A DNA stretch of 64,000 nucleotides. Source: Roseobacter fucihabitans (lineage in GTDB: Bacteria > Pseudomonadota > Alphaproteobacteria > Rhodobacterales > Rhodobacteraceae). Made by a program: the position numbers and the translations under genes. The DNA lies in contig NZ_CP143423.1 in NCBI RefSeq assembly GCF_014337925.2, forward strand, positions 4,370,501-4,434,500. The letters run 5' to 3'. The notes under the pieces are model-generated. The model was given only the letters and a program-made list of their open reading frames with translations. It was not told the DNA's origin and made no database searches. Position 1 is the stretch's first letter. The number at the start of each line of letters is the position of its first letter. Below, in pieces: positions 18,551-37,239 of this stretch.

Positions 18551-19700
18551 GGATTGGGAACAAGGCGGCTTCGGGCTTTATCTGCACTGGCCGTTCTGCG
18601 AGGCCAAATGCCCCTATTGCGACTTCAACAGCCATGTATCGCGCGCCATTGATCAAACGGCGTGGTGCGACGCTTATCTGAAAGAACTCGACCGCGCCGC
18701 CTTTGAAACACCGGGGCGCGTCTTGCAATCGGTCTTTTTTGGCGGCGGCACACCAAGCCTGATGGACCCGGACACGGCTGCATTGGTCATCGAACGGATC
18801 AAACGAAACTGGCCCTGTGCCAACGATCTGGAAATCACGCTCGAAGCCAATCCCGGTTCTGTTGAGGCCGGCCGTTTTCGCGCATTTCGCGACGGCGGGG
18901 TTAACCGAATTTCGATGGGGATACAGGCGTTGAACGATGCCGACCTCAAACGTCTCGGGCGGCTGCATTCGGTGGAGGAGGCGTTGCAGGCTTTTGAGAT
19001 TGCCCGCAAAACGTTCGAACGCGTTAGTTTTGATCTGATCTATGCGCGGCAAGGTCAGGGTCTTGAGGCCTGGCAAGCCGAGCTTGAAGGGGCGTTATCC
19101 CTGGCAGTCGATCATCTGTCGCTTTACCAGCTGACGATTGAGCAAGGAACGGCATTTGGGGACCGCTATAATGCAGGGCGATTGCGCGACCTGCCGGACG
19201 AAGATCTGGGCGCGGATCTCTTTTCCCTGACCCAAGACATATGCGACCGGCACGGATTGCCCGCCTATGAAGTTTCCAATCACGCCCGTGACGGTGCCCA
19301 ATCGCGGCATAACCTAATTTACTGGCGATACGGGGATTACATCGGAATTGGTCCGGGGGCGCATGGGCGATTGACGTTGAGTGGCCAGAAATACGCAACC
19401 GAATGTTATTCAAACCCTAACCGTTGGCTCAGTGCGGCATCGGATGGGGCACCGGAAAAACCCCGCGTTCGATTGTCAGCCACGGATCAGGCAAGTGAAT
19501 TGCTTTTGATGGGATTGCGCCTTAAGGAAGGTGTGAACATCCAGCGCTATGAAGCACTCGCTGGCCTGCGGCTAGATCCCACCCGCTTAACAGAATTGCG
19601 GAACCTGGGAATGATCGACATCCAAAACGGCCATTTAATCGTTTTAGATCAAGGTGTTATATTACTAAATTCGGTTATTGCGAAGCTATTGGATTCTTAG
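18543..19700 (+). CDS. hemW: HemW-type radical SAM protein
   Basis: A 385-residue radical SAM protein of the HemW (formerly HemN-like) family, thought to act as a heme chaperone rather than an oxygen-independent coproporphyrinogen oxidase. The iron-sulfur cluster motif CEAKCPYCDFNSH gives the CxxxCxxC cysteines. FFGGGTPSLM and the IEITLEANP-like LEITLEANPG segment follow, then NRISMGIQALND. The start appears to be a TTG at 18543 that lies inside the last codons of rdgB; no ATG or GTG in this frame fits the expected N-terminus ([18 protein letters not shown]). Its end overlaps the convergent parB by four bases. Confidence 0.88.
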   Translation: MAEDWEQGGFGLYLHWPFCEAKCPYCDFNSHVSRAIDQTAWCDAYLKELDRAAFETPGRVLQSVFFGGGTPSLMDPDTAALVIERIKRNWPCANDLEITLEANPGSVEAGRFRAFRDGGVNRISMGIQALNDADLKRLGRLHSVEEALQAFEIARKTFERVSFDLIYARQGQGLEAWQAELEGALSLAVDHLSLYQLTIEQGTAFGDRYNAGRLRDLPDEDLGADLFSLTQDICDRHGLPAYEVSNHARDGAQSRHNLIYWRYGDYIGIGPGAHGRLTLSGQKYATECYSNPNRWLSAASDGAPEKPRVRLSATDQASELLLMGLRLKEGVNIQRYEALAGLRLDPTRLTELRNLGMIDIQNGHLIVLDQGVILLNSVIAKLLDS

Positions 19701-20596
19701 CTTCCACTTAGGACACGGCATAGCTCATCCAGCTCATCCAGTGATTTATAGTGCAGCGTCATTTGGCCAGAATCCTGCCCTGTCTTGTGGTTCAGCACTA
19801 CTTTCATACCCAAAGCAGCCGATAAATCGCCTTCCAGCGCCTTTGTATCAGCATCTTTAGCATCGCGCGCTTCACGGTTTGGATTTGGTTTCGACCCGCT
19901 GGATTCGTCCGCCTGTTCTTTTTTGACCAGCGCCTCAACGGCCCGTACCGACAAACCGCCCTTTACGATCTGCTGTGCGATCCTGAGCGGGTTCTCAGCG
20001 GTCACAAGCGCGCGTGCGTGACCGGCGCTCAAACCCCCTTGGCGGACCATCTCCAGAACCTCATCGGGCAAGTTCAGCAGGCGTAATAAATTGGCAATAT
20101 GACTGCGGCTTTTCCCCAGTGCTTCGGCCATTTTCTCCTGCGTATGACCAAAGCGATCCATCAGTTGGCGATATCCAACCGCCTCTTCTATCGGGTTCAG
20201 ATCAGCGCGCTGGATGTTTTCGATGATTGCAACTTCCAGCACCTCAACATCGGTGAAGCTTCGAATGACCGCGGGCAACGCATGCAATTTTGCAATTTGG
20301 GCGGCACGCCACCGACGTTCGCCCGCAACGATTTCATATCGCCCCTCGTGCAAAGCCCGTAGAATCAGTGGCTGGATGATGCCCTTCTCGCGGATCGACG
20401 CTGCAAGGTCTTCCAAATCCGCCTCTGCAAATCGTTTTCGGGGCTGATCGGGATTTGGTGAAATCTGTTCGATAGGTATAAGCTTTTCTGCTGAGGACGG
20501 TCCAGCACTCGTCGCGCGCTCCGTCTCTGCAACGTCTGACATCAAAGCCGACAAGCCCCGACCAAGGCCTCGTTTGCGGTCTACTCCACTCACCAT
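19697..20596 (-). CDS. parB: Chromosome partitioning protein ParB
   Basis: A 299-residue ParB CTPase/DNA-binding protein. Near the N-terminus is RKRGLGRGLSALM, typical of chromosomal ParB. The CTP-binding region has PDQPRKRF and EIVAGERRWRAAQ (GERRxR motif). The helix-turn-helix is around HTQEKMAEALGKSRSHIANL, and a C-terminal dimerisation segment ends in MTLHYKSLDELDELCRVL. It lies nine bases after parA and is the last gene of the leftward block. Two perfect parS sites lie 1.4 and 3.3 kb upstream, in rsmG and mnmG, and are its expected targets. Confidence 0.97.
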   Translation of the reverse strand: MVSGVDRKRGLGRGLSALMSDVAETERATSAGPSSAEKLIPIEQISPNPDQPRKRFAEADLEDLAASIREKGIIQPLILRALHEGRYEIVAGERRWRAAQIAKLHALPAVIRSFTDVEVLEVAIIENIQRADLNPIEEAVGYRQLMDRFGHTQEKMAEALGKSRSHIANLLRLLNLPDEVLEMVRQGGLSAGHARALVTAENPLRIAQQIVKGGLSVRAVEALVKKEQADESSGSKPNPNREARDAKDADTKALEGDLSAALGMKVVLNHKTGQDSGQMTLHYKSLDELDELCRVLSGS

Positions 20597-20605
20597 CTCA
20601 TCCCC

Positions 20606-21415
20606 CTAAGCAACTTTTTGTGTGTTTTTGGTCAGCACTTCCTGTGCCAAAGCGCGATAAGCCACAGCGCCCTTTGATCCCGTGTCATAAGACAGAACCG
20701 GCATGGCAAAAGATGGGGCTTCACTAACGCGGACATTTCTTGGAATTCTCGTCGCAAAAACCAAATTTCCAAGATTGTCCCGCGCGTCCTGCTCCACCTG
20801 CATCGACAGGTTGTTACGCTGGTCATACATGGTCAGAACAACCCCTTCGATACGCAGATCCCGGTTCCCCGTTTGGCGGACCTCTCGAATGGTCAACATG
20901 AGCTGTGAAAGACCTTCCAGTGCGAAAAACTCACTTTGGAGCGGCACAAGGACAGAATGAGACGCGATCATCGCGTTCACCGTCAGCAGATTAAGCGACG
21001 GCGGGCAATCGATCAATATGTAGTCGAATTGAAACAAATCCATCGCGGTTTGGCGAAGTGCGTCATGCAAAAGAAAGCTACGCTTTTCGTTTGAAATCAA
21101 TTCGATATCGGCTGAGCTCAGATCGATCGTCGCAGGTATAATCATAAGCCCAGGTGTTATCGTCGGGAGAATTATTTCCGACAAATCCACATCATCAAGT
21201 AACAGGTCATATGTCGTTAATGCGCGGCTCTCAACTTCAATGCCCAGCCCGGTCGACGCGTTGCCCTGCGGATCCAAATCGACAACCAGCACTTTCTGTC
21301 CGAATTCAACCAGTGCAGCGGCCAAATTGATCGTGGTTGTCGTCTTGCCAACACCACCTTTTTGATTGGCAATTGAAATGATTTTCGGTCCAATGGGACG
21401 TGATAAATCAGACAA
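20606..21415 (-). CDS. parA: Chromosome partitioning ATPase ParA
   Basis: A 269-residue ParA/Soj ATPase that moves the ParB-parS complex of the replication origin. The deviant Walker A motif is NQKGGVGKTTTTINLA at about residue 18, the second motif is VDLDPQGNASTGLG, and Walker B is DYILIDCPPSLNLLT. The start overlaps the end of rsmG by eight bases. The order rsmG-parA-parB is the standard origin-proximal arrangement in alphaproteobacteria. Confidence 0.97.
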   Translation of the reverse strand: MSDLSRPIGPKIISIANQKGGVGKTTTTINLAAALVEFGQKVLVVDLDPQGNASTGLGIEVESRALTTYDLLLDDVDLSEIILPTITPGLMIIPATIDLSSADIELISNEKRSFLLHDALRQTAMDLFQFDYILIDCPPSLNLLTVNAMIASHSVLVPLQSEFFALEGLSQLMLTIREVRQTGNRDLRIEGVVLTMYDQRNNLSMQVEQDARDNLGNLVFATRIPRNVRVSEAPSFAMPVLSYDTGSKGAVAYRALAQEVLTKNTQKVA

Positions 21416-22013
21416 TCTGGATATCCCTTATCTCAAGTATTGCTGCGTCCGGATTTGTGTTACTCTTATGCGCGATCACATCAAAAGACCATGATTCACG
21501 TGCGATGTTGACCTCTGCCTCCCATGTTTTTCCCTTGTGCAGTAGTGCACACCCTCCCCGTTTCATGTGCCGGTCAGCATAACCAAGCAACCCTGTCAAA
21601 TCCGTCAAAGCACGTGCAGAAAGAATATCACATTCGAGCGGAGCCACTTTCTCGATACGTGCGTTGATAACTGTGGTTTCGAGGCCCAACTCTCGACTGG
21701 CGTTGCGCAGGAATGTCGCTTTGCGCGTATCACTTTCGATCATCGTTACATGACGTTCAGGATACGCCTGTTGCGCCAGAATTGCCACAACGATCCCAGG
21801 CAATCCGCCTCCACTACCAAGATCTACCCATTTTTCCCAGTGACCAGCATAATCATACACCTGAGCAGAATCCCATATATGTCTGTTGTTGATTTCAGAA
21901 ACACTAGATTTGGATATTAGATTTATGGTTTGGTTCCACTTTTTAAGAAGACACACATAGAAATCAATTTTATCCAATGTTTCACGTGAAACATCTTCTC
22001 CAAGTAAGTTCAT
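21408..22013 (-). CDS. rsmG: 16S rRNA (guanine-N7) methyltransferase RsmG
   Basis: A 201-residue SAM-dependent methyltransferase that modifies G527 of 16S r[12 protein letters not shown] near residue 26, RHIWDSAQV, the SAM-binding [16 protein letters not shown] motif and the later LSARALTDL are all present. The start overlaps the stop of mnmG as ATGA. A perfect 16-base parS sequence is embedded in codons 7-12 and encodes Asp-Val-Ser-Arg-Glu-Thr. Base composition here is visibly AT-richer than in genes further from the origin. Confidence 0.96.
21978..21993. promoter_or_regulatory. parS site 1 (inside rsmG)
   Basis: The sequence TGTTTCACGTGAAACA is the exact parS consensus bound by chromosomal ParB proteins, and here it is part of an 18-base perfect palindrome (21977-21994). 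It lies within rsmG codons 7-12, about 1.4 kb upstream of parB. It is one of two identical sites in the window. Confidence 0.96.
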
Positions 22014-23881
22014 GCTGATTTCAGTCGCTTGAATTGCCGCAATTTTATCGAAACCAGCGTTAATGCGGCAGGAGTAACCCCCTCAATCCGCGCCATTTGA
22101 GCAATCGTTCGAGGACGAGACGCATTAAGCTTAGTTTTCATTTCGTTTGAGAGGCCATCCATATCGTCATATTCAAAATCACCTGGAATGACTTGGGCTT
22201 CGTCTTTATGAACAAGTTCTATCTCTCTTTTCTGGCGATCAAGATAATTTGCGTAAACAGCCTCTTTTTCTAGCTGTTTCTGAGTTTCAATTTCGACCGC
22301 TTCCAATGAAGGGTCCATTTTTTGAAGGTCTGAAAATGAGACTCCCGGAAAAGCCAGCAGCTGCATTCCCGTTCGTCTTTCGCCGTCTTCATTAATTTTT
22401 AGACCAACACGAGCGGCCTCTTTGGGAGTGAATGTCTGATATTCCAAATTACCACGCGCTTTTTCAAGCTTCTCAATTTTGGATCGATATGACGCTTGCC
22501 TTTCTTGGCCCACACACCCCAAATCAATACCAACACCTGTCAAGCGTTGGTCTGCGTTATCTGCACGGAGTGAAAGACGAAACTCTGCCCGAGACGTAAA
22601 CATCCGATAGGGCTCAGTAACACCGCGAGTCGTCAGATCATCAATCATGACACCAATATAGCTATCCGCCCTCGAAAACTGTATGGAATCCTTGCCTTGC
22701 GCTTCCAGCGCGGCATTCAGACCGGCAACAATCCCCTGAGCAGCGGCTTCCTCGTAACCTGTCGTGCCGTTAATCTGACCCGCTAGGTATAAACCCGGAA
22801 CGCTTGAAGCAGAGAGACTGCTATTTAGGGCGCGGGGATCAACGTAATCATATTCAATTGCATATCCCGGTTGAACAATTTTAACATCTTCTAGCCCCAC
22901 AATTGAACGAACGTACTCAATTTGGACATTTTCCGGCAATGACGTTGATATTCCATTCGGATAAATTGTGGTCGTAGAAAGGCCTTCCGGTTCCAAAAAT
23001 ATGAGATGGGACTCCTTATCAGCAAAGCGAACTACTTTATCCTCGATTGAGGGGCAATATCTTGGCCCAACCCCTTCTATCCGGCCACCATACATTGACG
23101 ATTTCGTTAGGTTATTCCTAATAATCTCATGGGTTTGCGCATTTGTATGGGTAATACCGCAAGAAACTTGACGGGCCTGAGTTGCGTTGGTCAGAAAAGA
23201 GAAAAACGTCGGCGATTCATCGCCCGGTTGCGCCTCCAACCCTTCCCAATTTATCGTTTCCCCATCTAGCCGTGGGGGCGTTCCGGTTTTTAAACGCCCG
23301 AGCGAAAAACCAAAGTCGTCAATTCGTTTCGCGAGCCTGTCACTAGACCTGTCACCCATCCGCCCAGCAGAATAAGACACATCGCCAATATGAATTATAC
23401 CTCGAAGAAAAGTCCCTGTGGTTAATACAACACTTTTAGCGCGGATGGCACTCCCATCATCAAGAACGACGCCTCTTACACGAGGACCCTCCATCACAAG
23501 ATCGACAACCTCTCCGACGATAACCTCTAGGTTTTCTTGCCCTTTCGTGGCCTTAATCATCTCGTTCTGGTATATTTGCCGATCTGACTGCGCGCGGGGC
23601 CCTTGAACTGCGGGGCCCTTGCGACGATTCAAAAGTCGAAATTGAATCCCAGCCTTATCCGCAATACGACCCATCACACCATCCAATGCGTCGATTTCTC
23701 TCACCAGGTGCCCCTTACCAAGACCCCCAATTGCCGGATTACAGGACATCACCCCAATACCATTTTGGCTCATCGTCACCAAAACAGTATCAACACCCAT
23801 TCTAGCCGCCGCGTGCGCAGCCTCTACGCCCGCATGTCCCCCGCCAACAACCAATACATCAAAATGTTTCACGTGAAACAC
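22010..23881 (-). CDS. mnmG: tRNA uridine-5-carboxymethylaminomethyl modification enzyme MnmG (GidA)
   Basis: A 623-residue FAD protein that, with MnmE, modifies the wobble uridine of certain tRNAs. The FAD motif [15 protein letters not shown] is at the start, [16 protein letters not shown] and [14 protein letters not shown] are family signatures, and the C-terminal [16 protein letters not shown] helical domain ([15 protein letters not shown]) binds tRNA and MnmE. I place the start at the GTG at 23881, giving the N-terminus (M)[13 protein letters not shown]; those first six codons are themselves a parS site. The frame stays open 19 codons further upstream but that would run into mnmE, whose stop is four bases away. 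It precedes rsmG with an ATGA overlap. Confidence 0.95.
23865..23880. promoter_or_regulatory. parS site 2 (start of mnmG)
   Basis: A second exact TGTTTCACGTGAAACA parS sequence overlaps codons 1-6 of mnmG and encodes the FHVKH peptide. It is about 1.9 kb from the first site and about 3.2 kb from the proposed origin, a usual distance for chromosomal ParB loading sites. Confidence 0.96.
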
Positions 23882-26640: not shown

Positions 26641-27090
26641 TCAGAACCGCACCACTACCGACAGAACGATCAGGACCATCAACAAAGTGGGAACCTCATT
26701 CATCATTCTAAACTGGCGTCCGGTCAAGTTATTGGAGCCATTCATAAAATCCTTACGCCGCAAACCCAACCAGTGATGAAACAACGTCATTGCGAGCACA
26801 CCACCGGCTTTTGTCCAGGGCCAGATTTCAGACCAATTAACCACACCTGGCGTAAATATGAGGCAAATCCCAAAGCCCCAGGTCGCTATCATAGCCGGAT
26901 TCATGATCACGCGGAGAAGTTTAAGTTCCATCGTTTGAAATAACGCGTGGGTTTCTCCGCTTTGGCCGACCTGTTCAACGTGATAAACGTAAAGGCGCGG
27001 AAGATAGAACAACCCAGCCATCCAGGCGATGACCGACATGATATGAAATGCTTTGACCCAAGGGTACCCAAGGGCAAGAAGTTCGGTCAT
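26641..27090 (-). CDS. hemJ: Protoporphyrinogen IX oxidase HemJ
   Basis: A 149-residue inner-membrane protein of the HemJ family, which oxidises protoporphyrinogen IX to protoporphyrin IX in many proteobacteria that lack HemG and HemY-type oxidases. It has about four membrane helices. The conserved His is in VKAFHIMSVIAWMAGLFYLPR, and the LYVYH and LFHHWLGLRR segments match the family. It is the first leftward gene beside the proposed origin, so its promoter must lie in 27091-27494. The gene called hemY further right is a different protein that shares only the name. Confidence 0.93.
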   Translation of the reverse strand: MTELLALGYPWVKAFHIMSVIAWMAGLFYLPRLYVYHVEQVGQSGETHALFQTMELKLLRVIMNPAMIATWGFGICLIFTPGVVNWSEIWPWTKAGGVLAMTLFHHWLGLRRKDFMNGSNNLTGRQFRMMNEVPTLLMVLIVLSVVVRF

Positions 27091-27494
27091 CTCATTCTCC
27101 CAACAGTCCTTGCCCTCTTATAATAATATAAGAAAAGATAAAGAGATGATGATTAAGTAGGGTTTCAGAATTCTGTGGATTATTGCCTTATGCCTAAACT
27201 TGTCCCGATGCGGAGATCTTTGATCACCAGCACCCGAAAATATGTAAAAATATAGAAAAATCATTATATTTCAAATATTTAAATGATGTTATATTTGCAT
27301 TTTGGTTTATAAATCTGTGGATATCTCCGAACACGCGGGTTTAATCACAGGGCGTGACTTATCTTTGTGCGCATGGGTATGTTTTCTTCAAAAGCCAATG
27401 ACACACCGCCAGATTTGGCCCCTTGTGAAAAACCGCAGATTTACGCAGAAGAAACTATTAATAAATCCTTAATGCTGTTCACAGGGATATCCAC
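27091..27494. other. Probable chromosome origin (oriC), gene-free and AT-rich
   Basis: The only gene-free stretch over 300 bases in the window. Bases 27241-27300 are 52 of 60 A/T by direct count, a likely unwinding element. Five 9-mers each differ by one base from the DnaA box TTATNCACA: 27174-27182 (minus), 27316-27324 (minus), 27341-27349 (plus), 27424-27432 (minus) and 27487-27495 (plus, touching the maf start codon). A full CtrA box lies at 27458-27472. All seven genes to the left are transcribed leftward and the four to the right rightward. The maf-aroE-coaE-dnaQ neighbourhood matches, as I recall, the Caulobacter origin region. The function is inferred, not proven. Confidence 0.8.
27458..27472. 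promoter_or_regulatory. CtrA-type box in the proposed origin
   Basis: TTAATAAATCCTTAA matches the full CtrA consensus TTAA-N7-TTAA. It sits between two DnaA-box-like 9-mers, 23 bases before the maf start codon. In Caulobacter CtrA represses initiation through such boxes in oriC. A weaker relative, TTAAGTAGGGTTTCA (one mismatch), is at 27153-27167. Confidence 0.6.
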
Positions 27495-28094
27495 ATGCCA
27501 CACCCCTTGATCCTTGCGTCTGGTTCGGATGTTCGTGCGCAATTGCTGCGCCAGGCCTGCGTATCGTTTACCGCGCAGCCTGCCCGTGTTGACGAAGACA
27601 TGATCCGCGACGCGATGCTCGCAGAGGCCGCATCCCCGCGTGATATTGCCGACACACTTGCCGAGATGAAGGCCCGAAAGATCAGCGATAAAAACCCCAA
27701 CGCGCTTGTTCTTGGCTGTGATCAGGTTCTGGATCATAACGGAGACATGATGTCCAAGCCTGAAACCCCCGAGGATGCAGAGGCGCAATTGACCAGCTTG
27801 CGAAATGATCGTCACAGCCTGTTGTCCGCTGCCGTGTTGTATGAGGCGGGCAAACCGGTCTGGCGCCACGTTGGACAGGTGCGCTTGCGCATGCGCAATG
27901 CCAGTGATGCCTATATCAAAGGGTATGTCGCGCGGAATTGGGAGAGTATTCGCCATTCCGTTGGGGCCTATAAACTCGAAGAAGAAGGCGTACGCTTGTT
28001 TACCCGGATTGAGGGGGATTATTTCAATGTGCTGGGGTTGCCGCTCTTGGAACTACTGGCCTATTTAACATTGCGTGGAGATTTGGAACAATGA
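27495..28094 (+). CDS. maf: Maf-family nucleotide pyrophosphatase
   Basis: A 199-residue Maf protein, a small nucleoside triphosphate pyrophosphatase acting on modified or canonical nucleotides. The N-terminal LILASGSDVRAQLL corresponds to the family's LASASPRR loop, and LVLGCDQVLDHNG carries the catalytic Asp. The Gln after that Asp resembles the YceF (m7GTP-hydrolysing) branch rather than the dTTP/UTP branch; this subgroup call is tentative. It is the first rightward gene beside the proposed origin, and a DnaA-like 9-mer touches its start codon. Its stop overlaps aroE as ATGA. Confidence 0.9.
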   Translation: MPHPLILASGSDVRAQLLRQACVSFTAQPARVDEDMIRDAMLAEAASPRDIADTLAEMKARKISDKNPNALVLGCDQVLDHNGDMMSKPETPEDAEAQLTSLRNDRHSLLSAAVLYEAGKPVWRHVGQVRLRMRNASDAYIKGYVARNWESIRHSVGAYKLEEEGVRLFTRIEGDYFNVLGLPLLELLAYLTLRGDLEQ

Positions 28095-34855: not shown

Positions 34856-36160
34856 TTAAAGCATGTAGCGGCTGATATCCGTAGACTGCGTCAATGCGCC
34901 GAGGTTTGCCTGCACGAATGCCGCGTTCACGACAACGGCGTCGCCTTCGCGGTCCGGTGCGTTGAAGGACAACTCCTCGAACACGCGCTCCATCACGGTA
35001 TAAAGCCTGCGCGCGCCGATGTTTTCGACCGACTGGTTGACGTCTGCGGCGATCTTGGCCAGGGCGGCGATACCATCCTCTTCAAAGCTGACAGTGACTT
35101 TTTCAGTGCCCATCAGAGCGGTGTATTGCAGGGTCAGCGCGTTATCGGTTTCCGTCAGAATGCGTACGAAATCCTCCTCCGTGAGGGCGCGCAATTCAAC
35201 GCGGATCGGCAGGCGGCCCTGTAATTCAGGCAGTAAATCAGACGGTTTGGCGATATGGAACGCGCCGGAGGCAATGAACAGCACATGATCGGTTTTGACC
35301 GGCCCGTGTTTGGTGCTGACGGTGGTGCCCTCGATCAGGGGCAGCAGATCGCGCTGCACGCCTTCGCGGCTGACATCGCCACCGCGCGCGTCCGAGCGTG
35401 CACAAACCTTGTCGATTTCATCTAGAAAAACGATACCGTTTTGCTCCACGGCCTCAATGGCGGCGCGGGTGACGGTTTCATCATCGAGCAATTTATCGGC
35501 CTCTTCCGAGATCAGCACGTCATAGCTTTCGGACACTTTTAACCGTTTGCGCGTGGTGCGCCCGCCCAGTGCTTTCCCGAACAGATCGCCGATGTTCATC
35601 ATACCCATGCCACCTTGCTGACCGGGAATATCCATCATCGGGAATGGGTTAGAGGTATCGGCCACCTCAAGGTCGATCATCTCGTTGTCCAGCTCGCCCG
35701 ATTTGAGCTTTTTGCGGAACATTTCGCGTGTGCCTTCGCGGGCATCCTCCCCGGCGATGGCGTCGATCACGCGTTCTTCCGCGGCGTGGCGGGCACCTGC
35801 TTTGACGTCCTCGCGCATGTGGTCGCGGGTCATGGCAATGGCGTTATCGACCAGATCGCGGATGATCTGTTCCACGTCACGGCCAACGTAACCGACTTCG
35901 GTGAATTTGGTGGCTTCGACCTTGAGAAACGGCGCGCGCGCCAGTTTGGCCAGACGGCGGCTGATTTCGGTTTTGCCGACGCCGGTGGGCCCGATCATCA
36001 GGATATTTTTGGGATAGACCTCGTCGCGCAGATCATCGCCCAATTGCTTGCGCCGCCAACGGTTGCGCAGGGCGACGGCGACCGCCCGTTTGGCGTCCTT
36101 TTGGCCGATGATGAACCGGTCGAGTTCTGAAACGATTTCGCGGGGGGTCAGGTCGGTCAT
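34856..36160 (-). CDS. hslU: HslU ATPase of the HslUV protease
   Basis: A 434-residue AAA+ unfoldase that feeds substrates to HslV. The Walker A is [28 protein letters not shown] is the pore-loop region, and Walker B is [12 protein letters not shown]. The C-terminus, [18 protein letters not shown] ([11 protein letters not shown]), inserts into HslV and is intact. It normally follows hslV directly; here a membrane-protein gene of 360 codons is inserted between them, overlapping each neighbour by four bases. Confidence 0.97.
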
Positions 36161-37239
36161 GAAGAAGCCTTTGCAACATGGGAGGGCGGCAATTTTTGGA
36201 GCGGGATGAAGCCGGGCAGCAGCGCCAGGAGACGCGCGCGGATATTTTCCCAGCGCGCACCCAGAAAGAGGAGCACGATCCCGAGGAAAAAGACCGTGAA
36301 CACCGCCCCATCCCCGTCAAAAATGGTAGCGGTCAGGATCACGGTGTAGCCGATGGCTGCGATCAGGAAAGACCGGCGGTCAATGATGATCGCAACCAGC
36401 GCGAAGAGCGTCAGGACCGCGACCAGCAGCGAGTTGGACCAGCCAGCGTCATTGTCGAGTAGGGACAGCGCGATGGTATTCACCAGGGCGGGCGCGGCGA
36501 CGACGTGCAGCCAGAAGCCATTGGCGGAACGTCGGGTAACGCGGTGCGGGTCGGACATATCGAACATCATGGCGATGGCGAACACCACGAGCCCCAGCGC
36601 AAGTGTGATGAAGGCAAAGGGGCCGCCCGCGGAAAGCAGGAAGAGTTCCTCAGTTGAGCCGGGTGATCCGCTGCTGTTGCCCGCGATCAGGATGGCCACG
36701 CCGAAGGCCGCCAGCGCGATCAAAGCCAGCGCGAAGGGGACACGGAACCGGAGCCAGTAGGCAAAAAGCGCCAGTGTTGCGAGGATAAAGGGCAGGGGCA
36801 GGCTGCTGTTATCGCCCTGTGCGACCATGAAAAGTTCGGAGAAGGCCCCGGCGAACCCGTAAGCTGCATTGATCGCGAACATGATCGACAGCGCGATGGC
36901 GGGCGCGACCATACGGCGGCGGCGGATGAAATATTCCGACATCCCCCAGAGAGAGGCGGCGGCAAAGAGGCTGGAGAATATGAGCGTGTTTTTGAGGCTT
37001 AGCGGATCATTGGTCACGACAAACGTCACAACACCAACCCATCCAACGGCCAGAATGAGCATGCCGACGACGATGAAAATCTCGTTGAAGCCTTTGAATA
37101 ATTCAAACGGTTCGTCGCCCGGCGCAAGGTTTTCACGCGCACCGCTGCGGCTGTGGGCAAGGCTCATCAGCGCGGCAGCCTGCGCTTCCGTCACGATCCC
37201 GGCGCTGACGGAGGCCCGAAGATCGTCCTGACTAATCAT
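36157..37239 (-). CDS. Unidentified polytopic membrane protein between hslV and hslU
   Basis: A 360-residue protein I do not recognise with certainty. The N-terminal 35 residues ([20 protein letters not shown]) form a soluble helical segment recalling the start of DUF2157-type proteins. From about residue 52 onward there are roughly ten hydrophobic segments (for example [20 protein letters not shown] and [20 protein letters not shown]). It has no enzyme motif. It overlaps hslU and hslV by four bases each as ATGA, so it is fully embedded in the protease operon and cotranslated with it. A role with HslUV at the membrane is possible but purely inferred from position. Confidence 0.75.

Follow-up and report, generated by a model that had tools for sequence, protein, structure and literature searches.

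In Escherichia coli, oriC combines a low-stability left arm, a first DnaA box facing it, an IHF site, and a far box in the opposite orientation, and in many bacteria oriC lies beside dnaA. Among the Alphaproteobacteria, the Caulobacter origin is described in the cited part of PMC1914354 as bordered by hemE and COG1806. For the Rhodobacteraceae, the main text of Kopejtka et al. 2019 (PMC6699656) reports 101 origins, placed with Ori-Finder by the skew minimum, DnaA boxes, the local GC minimum, and parAB. The BUS rule, as given in the cited part of PMC8287927, consists of a DnaA box, a spacer of up to 16 nt, and at least three NAN trios.

The window analyzed here is a 64,000-nucleotide stretch of Roseobacter fucihabitans, C1:4370501-4434500, where C1 is the 4,519,919-base contig (the 4.52 Mb chromosome) of a genome totaling 4,854,520 bases in six contigs. 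A first-pass annotation had noticed a gene-free stretch of 404 bases and had proposed it as the chromosomal replication origin. The stretch is indeed bounded by the starts of hemJ at 27090 (minus strand) and maf at 27495 (plus strand) (Table 1). We conclude with high confidence that this gap is oriC, at the place usual for the family; the proposal is supported by the skew, by conservation of the gap in the family, and by a replicon that carries the genome's only DnaA-family match. That match, at C1:381-866, is separated from the gap by about 122 kb across the contig ends, and its presence on the 4.52 Mb contig speaks against a non-chromosomal replicon. The gene order read earlier, hemJ-rho-mnmE-mnmG-rsmG-parA-parB on one side and maf-aroE-coaE-dnaQ on the other, agrees with the family matches. 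In the window, rho, mnmE, mnmG, rsmG, hemJ, maf, aroE, and coaE have NCBIfam matches above their cut-offs, and dnaQ is identified from an exonuclease Pfam match; the ParA/MinD-type matches of parA are below the cut-offs in all 25 listed of 29. Rfam at gathering thresholds gave no match anywhere in the window. A 360-aa open frame at 36160-37239, flanked by an AAA-family (hslU-like) gene on one side and a proteasome-family (hslV-like) gene on the other, had no Pfam match at E values up to 0.001.

Table 1. Features of the candidate origin region and its neighborhood (window coordinates)
Feature	Position	Strand	Basis
oriC candidate, divergent hemJ-maf intergenic region, 404 nt	27091..27494	.	Gene coordinates, kept gap, skew minimum
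hemJ, left border gene	26641..27090	-	TIGR00701 above cut-off
maf, right border gene	27495..28094	+	TIGR00172 above cut-off
A-rich tract, left candidate unwinding region (putative role)	27118..27144	+	27-gap and 46-sequence alignments
Core matched by family model R1	27119..27209	+	61.5 bits, E 2.4e-16
GATGATG...GTAGGG block beside A-rich tract (putative strand-opening role)	27145..27162	+	Conserved columns
DnaA box 1 (predicted), TAATCCACA on minus strand	27174..27182	-	One base off TTATNCACA
Degenerate DnaA box 2 (predicted), TTGTCCCGA, three mismatches in window	27200..27208	+	Alignment columns
Central A/T-rich tract, 52/60 A/T	27241..27300	.	Base count, duplex stability
IHF-like site, weak, one mismatch off consensus	27269..27281	+	Conserved CA....TTA columns
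DnaA box 3 (predicted), ATATCCACA on minus strand	27316..27324	-	One base off TTATNCACA
DnaA box 4 (predicted, weak support), TTAATCACA	27341..27349	+	One base off TTATNCACA
TTATCTTTGTGCG at the family's TTATCCTTATCC site, candidate low-affinity DnaA sites	27359..27371	+	Alignment columns
9-mer TTTTTCACA from the first-pass list	27424..27432	-	One base off TTATNCACA
TTAA-N7-TTAA, CtrA-type site, TTAATAAATCCTTAA	27458..27472	+	Motif match
Terminal DnaA box (predicted), ATATCCACA, overlapping maf start codon	27487..27495	+	One base off TTATNCACA
parB	19697..20596	-	ParB/RepB/Spo0J family TIGR00180 above cut-off
parA	20606..21415	-	ParA/MinD-type ATPase matches, place beside parB
parS, exact	21978..21993	+	Genome-wide site search
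parS, exact	23865..23880	+	Genome-wide site search

We followed the cumulative G-C walk over 520 contiguous kb, from 4.20 Mb of C1 via the contig end to 0.20 Mb. Its minimum is at C1:4398201 (window position 27701), 207 bp beyond the right end of the gap. Skew sampled along the chromosome was negative from 2.16 to 4.39 Mb in all stretches except one and mostly positive from 4.40 Mb via the contig end to 2.06 Mb, with a second switch in the interval 2.06-2.16 Mb, which contains the antipode of the gap (2.14 Mb). The expected sign was found in 34 of the 40 sampled 20 kb stretches, and the six misses were weak (largest, -0.023). By the 520 kb walk and the 40 sampled stretches, the skew minimum of the main chromosome is therefore placed at the gap, and the origin proposal passes, on sampled stretches, the skew check that had been named beforehand. 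The walk is almost flat from about 4.46 Mb via the contig end to 0.03 Mb, though the nearby right arm climbs. In two relatives whose locus lies mid-contig, the skew sign fits 19 of 20 stretches (G013) and 16 of 20 (G123); all four wrong-sign stretches of G123 are on the right arm, one of them immediately right of the gap.

The same walk bears on the possibility that the true origin is at dnaA, the linearization point of the record, about 122 kb away. A matched dnaA domain is present at the contig start. However, from C1:4518500 round the circle to C1:2500, the only boxes with at most one mismatch, at 736 and 758, lie inside the dnaA match itself, and the G-C walk in that region runs about 1,200 higher than at its minimum. 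We regard an origin at dnaA as extremely improbable. It is just as improbable that replication starts elsewhere in the near neighborhood, for example around parS, and that the gap serves as a conserved element of DnaA titration or of segregation. The partition sites and genes are close, and a skew walk gives a position only coarsely, but the small distance between walk minimum and gap, together with the A/T-rich tracts and the box array in the gap, argues against such a displaced start.

The partition system had been placed within 8 kb, and this was borne out by parS sites at 21978 and 23865 beside parA and parB. With up to two mismatches allowed, these are the only two parS sites of the genome, both exact, 3.2 and 5.1 kb from the gap, so that both parAB and parS have the proximity expected of a Rhodobacteraceae oriC. 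Both sites fall inside the rsmG and mnmG frames as listed, at their 5' ends, and the palindrome is thus also translated there.

All five 9-mers listed in the first-pass annotation as one base off TTATNCACA are present in the gap, at 27174, 27316, 27341, 27424, and 27487. Such 9-mers are not in excess across the whole window (27 versus 28.47 expected); their clustering alone is unusual. Dinucleotide shuffling of the gap with ATG appended, done 100 times, gave a mean of 0.61, and none of the shuffles reached the observed five, indicating a DnaA-box cluster above chance. Sampling of 1.18 Mb of the chromosome, window included, gave 484 sites within one mismatch of TTATNCACA, and no 404-nt stretch outside the gap exceeded three boxes, making the gap the densest. 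Exact copies of TTATNCACA account for 17 of the 484 sites, none of them in the gap. The 27 family gaps that include the window's hold 108 boxes, compared to 10.9 in shuffles (maximum, 19). The box places are spread across 320 nt, and place and strand are kept among relatives.

Counted within 8 nt of its place at no more than one mismatch, box 1 was found on the expected strand in 54 of 113 relatives and on the wrong strand in 4; the corresponding numbers were 38 and 1 for box 2, 34 and 1 for box 3, 13 and 2 for box 4, and 84 and 0 for the terminal box, which overlaps the maf start codon by one base. By alignment, box 1 is within one mismatch in 53/113 relatives and within two in 82/113, and box 2 in 41/111 and 73/111, respectively. 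The alignment is gapped at box 3, where 26 of 113 relatives are comparable, 10 of these within one mismatch. Three of the five listed 9-mers thus occupy well-conserved places. Box 4 is weak (at most one mismatch in 12/97 aligned relatives), and the 9-mer at 27424 has no counterpart at that level in any of 110; judged from these alignments, the latter is probably not a family DnaA box. At 27359, TTATCC is exact in 60/113 aligned relatives, and TTATCCTTATCC is found with up to two mismatches in 56/112; this place may comprise low-affinity DnaA sites. Another recurrent place is 27188-27193, with TTATCC at no more than one mismatch in 49% of comparable relatives. In the core alignment, five loci (L131, L133, L140, L159, and L178) carry a second box-like copy adjoining box 1 on the GATGATG side, forming a tandem pair that the window does not have. 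The GATGATG/GTAG block, the box at 27200, the TTATC site at 27359, and the TTAA-N7-TTAA site at 27458 were absent from the first-pass list.

The gap is A/T rich (255 of 404 bases) and is predicted to contain the easily opened stretch expected of oriC. The 52 A/T bases noted at 27241-27300 were counted as stated; the window maximum is 54/60, and every 60-mer of the window with at least 52 starts within 27235-27245. The least stable 40-mer of the gap is centered at 27264, so the central tract is the weaker duplex in this genome. Of the 102 gaps of 380 to 430 nt, window's included, 44 have their least stable 40-mer at about 40-80 of 404, the part with the A-rich left tract, and 50 have it at 160-200. 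The GATGATG...GTAGGG columns beside the A-rich left tract are among the most conserved of the gap in the alignments. At the place of the IHF-like site, WATCARNNNNTTR matches in only 5/27 gaps, and the aligned CA....TTA columns are conserved.

The BUS rule was also applied to the gaps. In its strict form (a box with at most one mismatch and at least four triplets), it matched 22 of 114 gaps, versus 40, 18, and 6 for the control letters A, C, and G; the strict forms gave no match in the window's gap. The looser rule of PMC8287927 (two mismatches and three triplets) matched 101/114 gaps, with 96, 81, and 68 for the same controls. The window's gap fits the looser rule but also fits it with the control letters A and G, and the match is therefore uninformative. 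Since the rule does not discriminate here, BUS was dropped as support. GANTC sites were neither enriched nor clearly depleted in the 27 gaps (84 versus 93.8; standard deviation, 12.9), and none was found in the window's own gap.

We additionally compared the locus across the family. Of 149 family genomes, 145 have maf, and hemJ is divergent from maf at 100 to 900 nt in 114 of 130 loci, with a median of 405 nt and 102 gaps within 380 to 430 nt. The arrangement was found in 27 of the 30 best maf matches (this genome included), in 76 of 80 named records, these being the top 80 among 562, and in 11 of the 20 most distant members. In the remaining 16 loci, either no hemJ match was found in the stretch examined (14) or the gap was 1.2 to 1.5 kb (2); 9 of the 16 are among the 20 most distant members. 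The 114 gaps comprise 113 distinct sequences, and at least one genome is present twice. Among named records, the close relatives belong to Roseobacter and Sulfitobacter, with at best 81% Maf identity in a ranking from which this genome's own or near-kin records were possibly excluded. The conserved order is the A-rich tract, GATGATG...GTAGGG, box 1, the box at about 27200, CA....TTA, box 3, the TTATCCTTATCC site, and the box at the maf start.

A sequence-only model of 96 positions, R1, was built from 46 named relatives with the window left out; 48 of the 80 named loci had passed the length and redundancy filters, and the shorter L142 and L180 were dropped. R1 has one match in this genome, C1:4397619-4397709, and no other at E values up to 10 (150 of 285 first-look candidates scored), so the window's gap holds the core common to the hemJ-maf gap of the family. 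At E values up to 0.001, the model matches 112 of 149 family genomes once each, this one included, some of which may share species with the training relatives. Under the filters of that search, which were stricter than in the single-genome search (28 candidates scored per genome), 37 of 149 gave no match. Of the 112 matches, 107 share the orientation of maf and lie no more than 450 nt upstream of it; three others are at 1.05 to 1.14 kb, one is off the contig of maf, and one is in a genome whose maf match is missing from the compared list.

A rival reading takes the gap for no more than a regulatory region that hemJ and maf share and at which DnaA or CtrA would serve as transcription factors. 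Both genes diverge from the gap, and the maf start, where a maf promoter would be expected, carries both the terminal box and the TTAA-N7-TTAA site. Regulation, however, leaves unexplained why the skew switches here and near the antipode, why 102 of 114 gaps are about 405 nt long, and why box places are kept over 320 nt. That the gap is nothing but a regulatory region is very unlikely, and regulatory and origin roles can coexist. Observations in favor of oriC are the position of the skew switch, the box cluster, the conserved layout, and the nearby parABS; observations against it are the lack of an exact box, the six wrong-sign stretches, the flat part of the walk, the wrong-sign stretches of G123, the 37/149 genomes without an R1 match, and the 16/130 loci without a close gap.

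The sequence TTAATAAATCCTTAA near the maf start fits the CtrA consensus given in the cited part of PMC4285127. TTAA-N7-TTAA occurs in 17/114 gaps, compared to a shuffle mean of 2.27 (maximum, 7), and other spacers from 3 to 12 occur in at most 6 gaps each. Twelve of the 17 sites are at -36/-37 from maf and five are elsewhere; the 12 are mostly in close kin, and shared descent therefore accounts for part of the fixed place. Not all Roseobacter records carry the site, and a family-wide CtrA site was rejected, as only 17 of 114 gaps have it. The cited part of PMC2877005 reports no binding of Brucella abortus CtrA to the origin of that species, which calls for caution about an assumed role, and that of PMC8116508 describes CtrA as dispensable in the Rhodobacterales studied so far. 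For the stretch at 27458, membership in the maf promoter and a putative role of CtrA at the origin are equally likely. A broader proposal can be offered only tentatively, and we consider it less likely than not: that the shared origin of the family, about 405 nt long, uses its GATGATG...GTAGG block beside box 1 as an opening code specific to the family and beyond the BUS rules, and that a Roseobacter/Sulfitobacter subgroup gained a CtrA site by the terminal box, through which the CtrA phosphorelay would act directly on initiation (and maf).

From this arrangement, we infer how DnaA and IHF would bind the gap, which A/T tract would open, and where the helicase would be loaded. DnaA would bind the two outer boxes, box 1 by the A-rich left arm and the terminal box at the maf start, which have opposite orientations, and possibly also the weaker intervening sites. 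The boxes would be drawn together by the central A/T tract, which IHF may bend. From box 1, DnaA would then spread across the GATGATG/GTAG block and open the A-rich left arm, where the helicase would be loaded in both directions. The left arm was picked as the first to open since it lies next to both the conserved block and box 1; opening there first would be contrary to the plain stability order in this genome.

To compare the gene neighborhood with other Alphaproteobacteria, we hand-picked 20 genomes of other families, mostly from high-scoring AroE rows (matches in 63/76 genomes) and with no random draw. A Kinase-PPPase gene was found in 17 of the 20, always divergent from hemE, with 354 to 917 nt between match edges. 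The aroE gene is nearby in 15 of the 17; in G214 it lies at a distance of 154 kb, and in G215 it is on a separate contig. In the three genomes without a Kinase-PPPase match, two of which are 86 to 87% complete, hemE adjoins maf. Boxes are concentrated in these gaps as well: 18 of them (G214 and G215 left out, and 92 nt of the G149 gap counted) hold 52 boxes in 8.9 kb, compared to 9 in about 56 kb of flanks, and 16 of the 18 hold at least one. In the present genome, hemE is at C1:3662275-3663294, 735 kb from the origin region, and Kinase-PPPase (PF03618, COG1806) had no match at E values up to 0.001. The Caulobacter-type border of hemE and Kinase-PPPase is thus lacking, and hemJ is now the left border. 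In L195 and L196, two of the three loci without Kinase-PPPase, a hemJ match lies beyond hemE, an order that suggests the loss of hemE from between the origin and hemJ. The Caulobacter-like neighborhood invoked in the first-pass annotation therefore holds for the maf-aroE side and does not extend to hemE and COG1806, to which the comparison cannot be carried because neither is here.

These results provide a precise candidate origin, with its sites, for a group whose origins in the cited literature came from prediction. The hemE/COG1806 rule for alphaproteobacterial origins fails in this genome, but the maf-aroE side still marks the place. The conserved block beside box 1 offers a specific target for work on origin opening, and the CtrA-type site offers one for work on whether CtrA controls replication in Roseobacters. 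Our literature search for hemJ with oriC, which left most subscription papers and all supplements outside its scope, found no paper, and among the matches listed for Rhodobacter sphaeroides chromosomal origins, none was on hemJ-oriC by title. The gap is almost certainly the origin expected for the family, with a layout common to most relatives, and we do not claim priority.

Compared to E. coli oriC, the gap has a similar left arm, first box, IHF-like site, and far box in the opposite orientation; unlike it, the gap is longer, lacks an exact box, and has other intermediate sites. The order of box, spacer, trinucleotide-like repeats, and A-rich tract resembles the Bacillus subtilis-type BUS as outlined in the cited part of PMC8287927, but the gap fails the stricter forms and the looser rule also fits control letters. 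By its gene neighbors and relatives, the locus belongs to the same family as the Rhodobacteraceae origins of Kopejtka et al., and it shares the skew minimum, GC minimum, and parAB used in the cited part of that study. One of the DnaA motifs given there, TGTGGATAT (PMC6699656), corresponds to box 3 when the plus strand is read and to the terminal box when the minus strand is read. In contrast to the present analysis, the main text of PMC6699656 has no occurrence of hemJ or maf, and its cited part describes no internal layout. The Caulobacter crescentus origin Cori differs, in the cited parts of its descriptions, in its borders, which are hemJ and maf here, and in having five CtrA sites versus one TTAA-N7-TTAA site. 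According to the same parts (PMC1914354 and PMC4285127), Cori is also a divergent gap of several hundred nucleotides with an A/T-rich part, a CtrA-type site, and DnaA boxes that differ by one base from the E. coli type. The maf-aroE side of the present locus is common to other alphaproteobacterial families in our survey.
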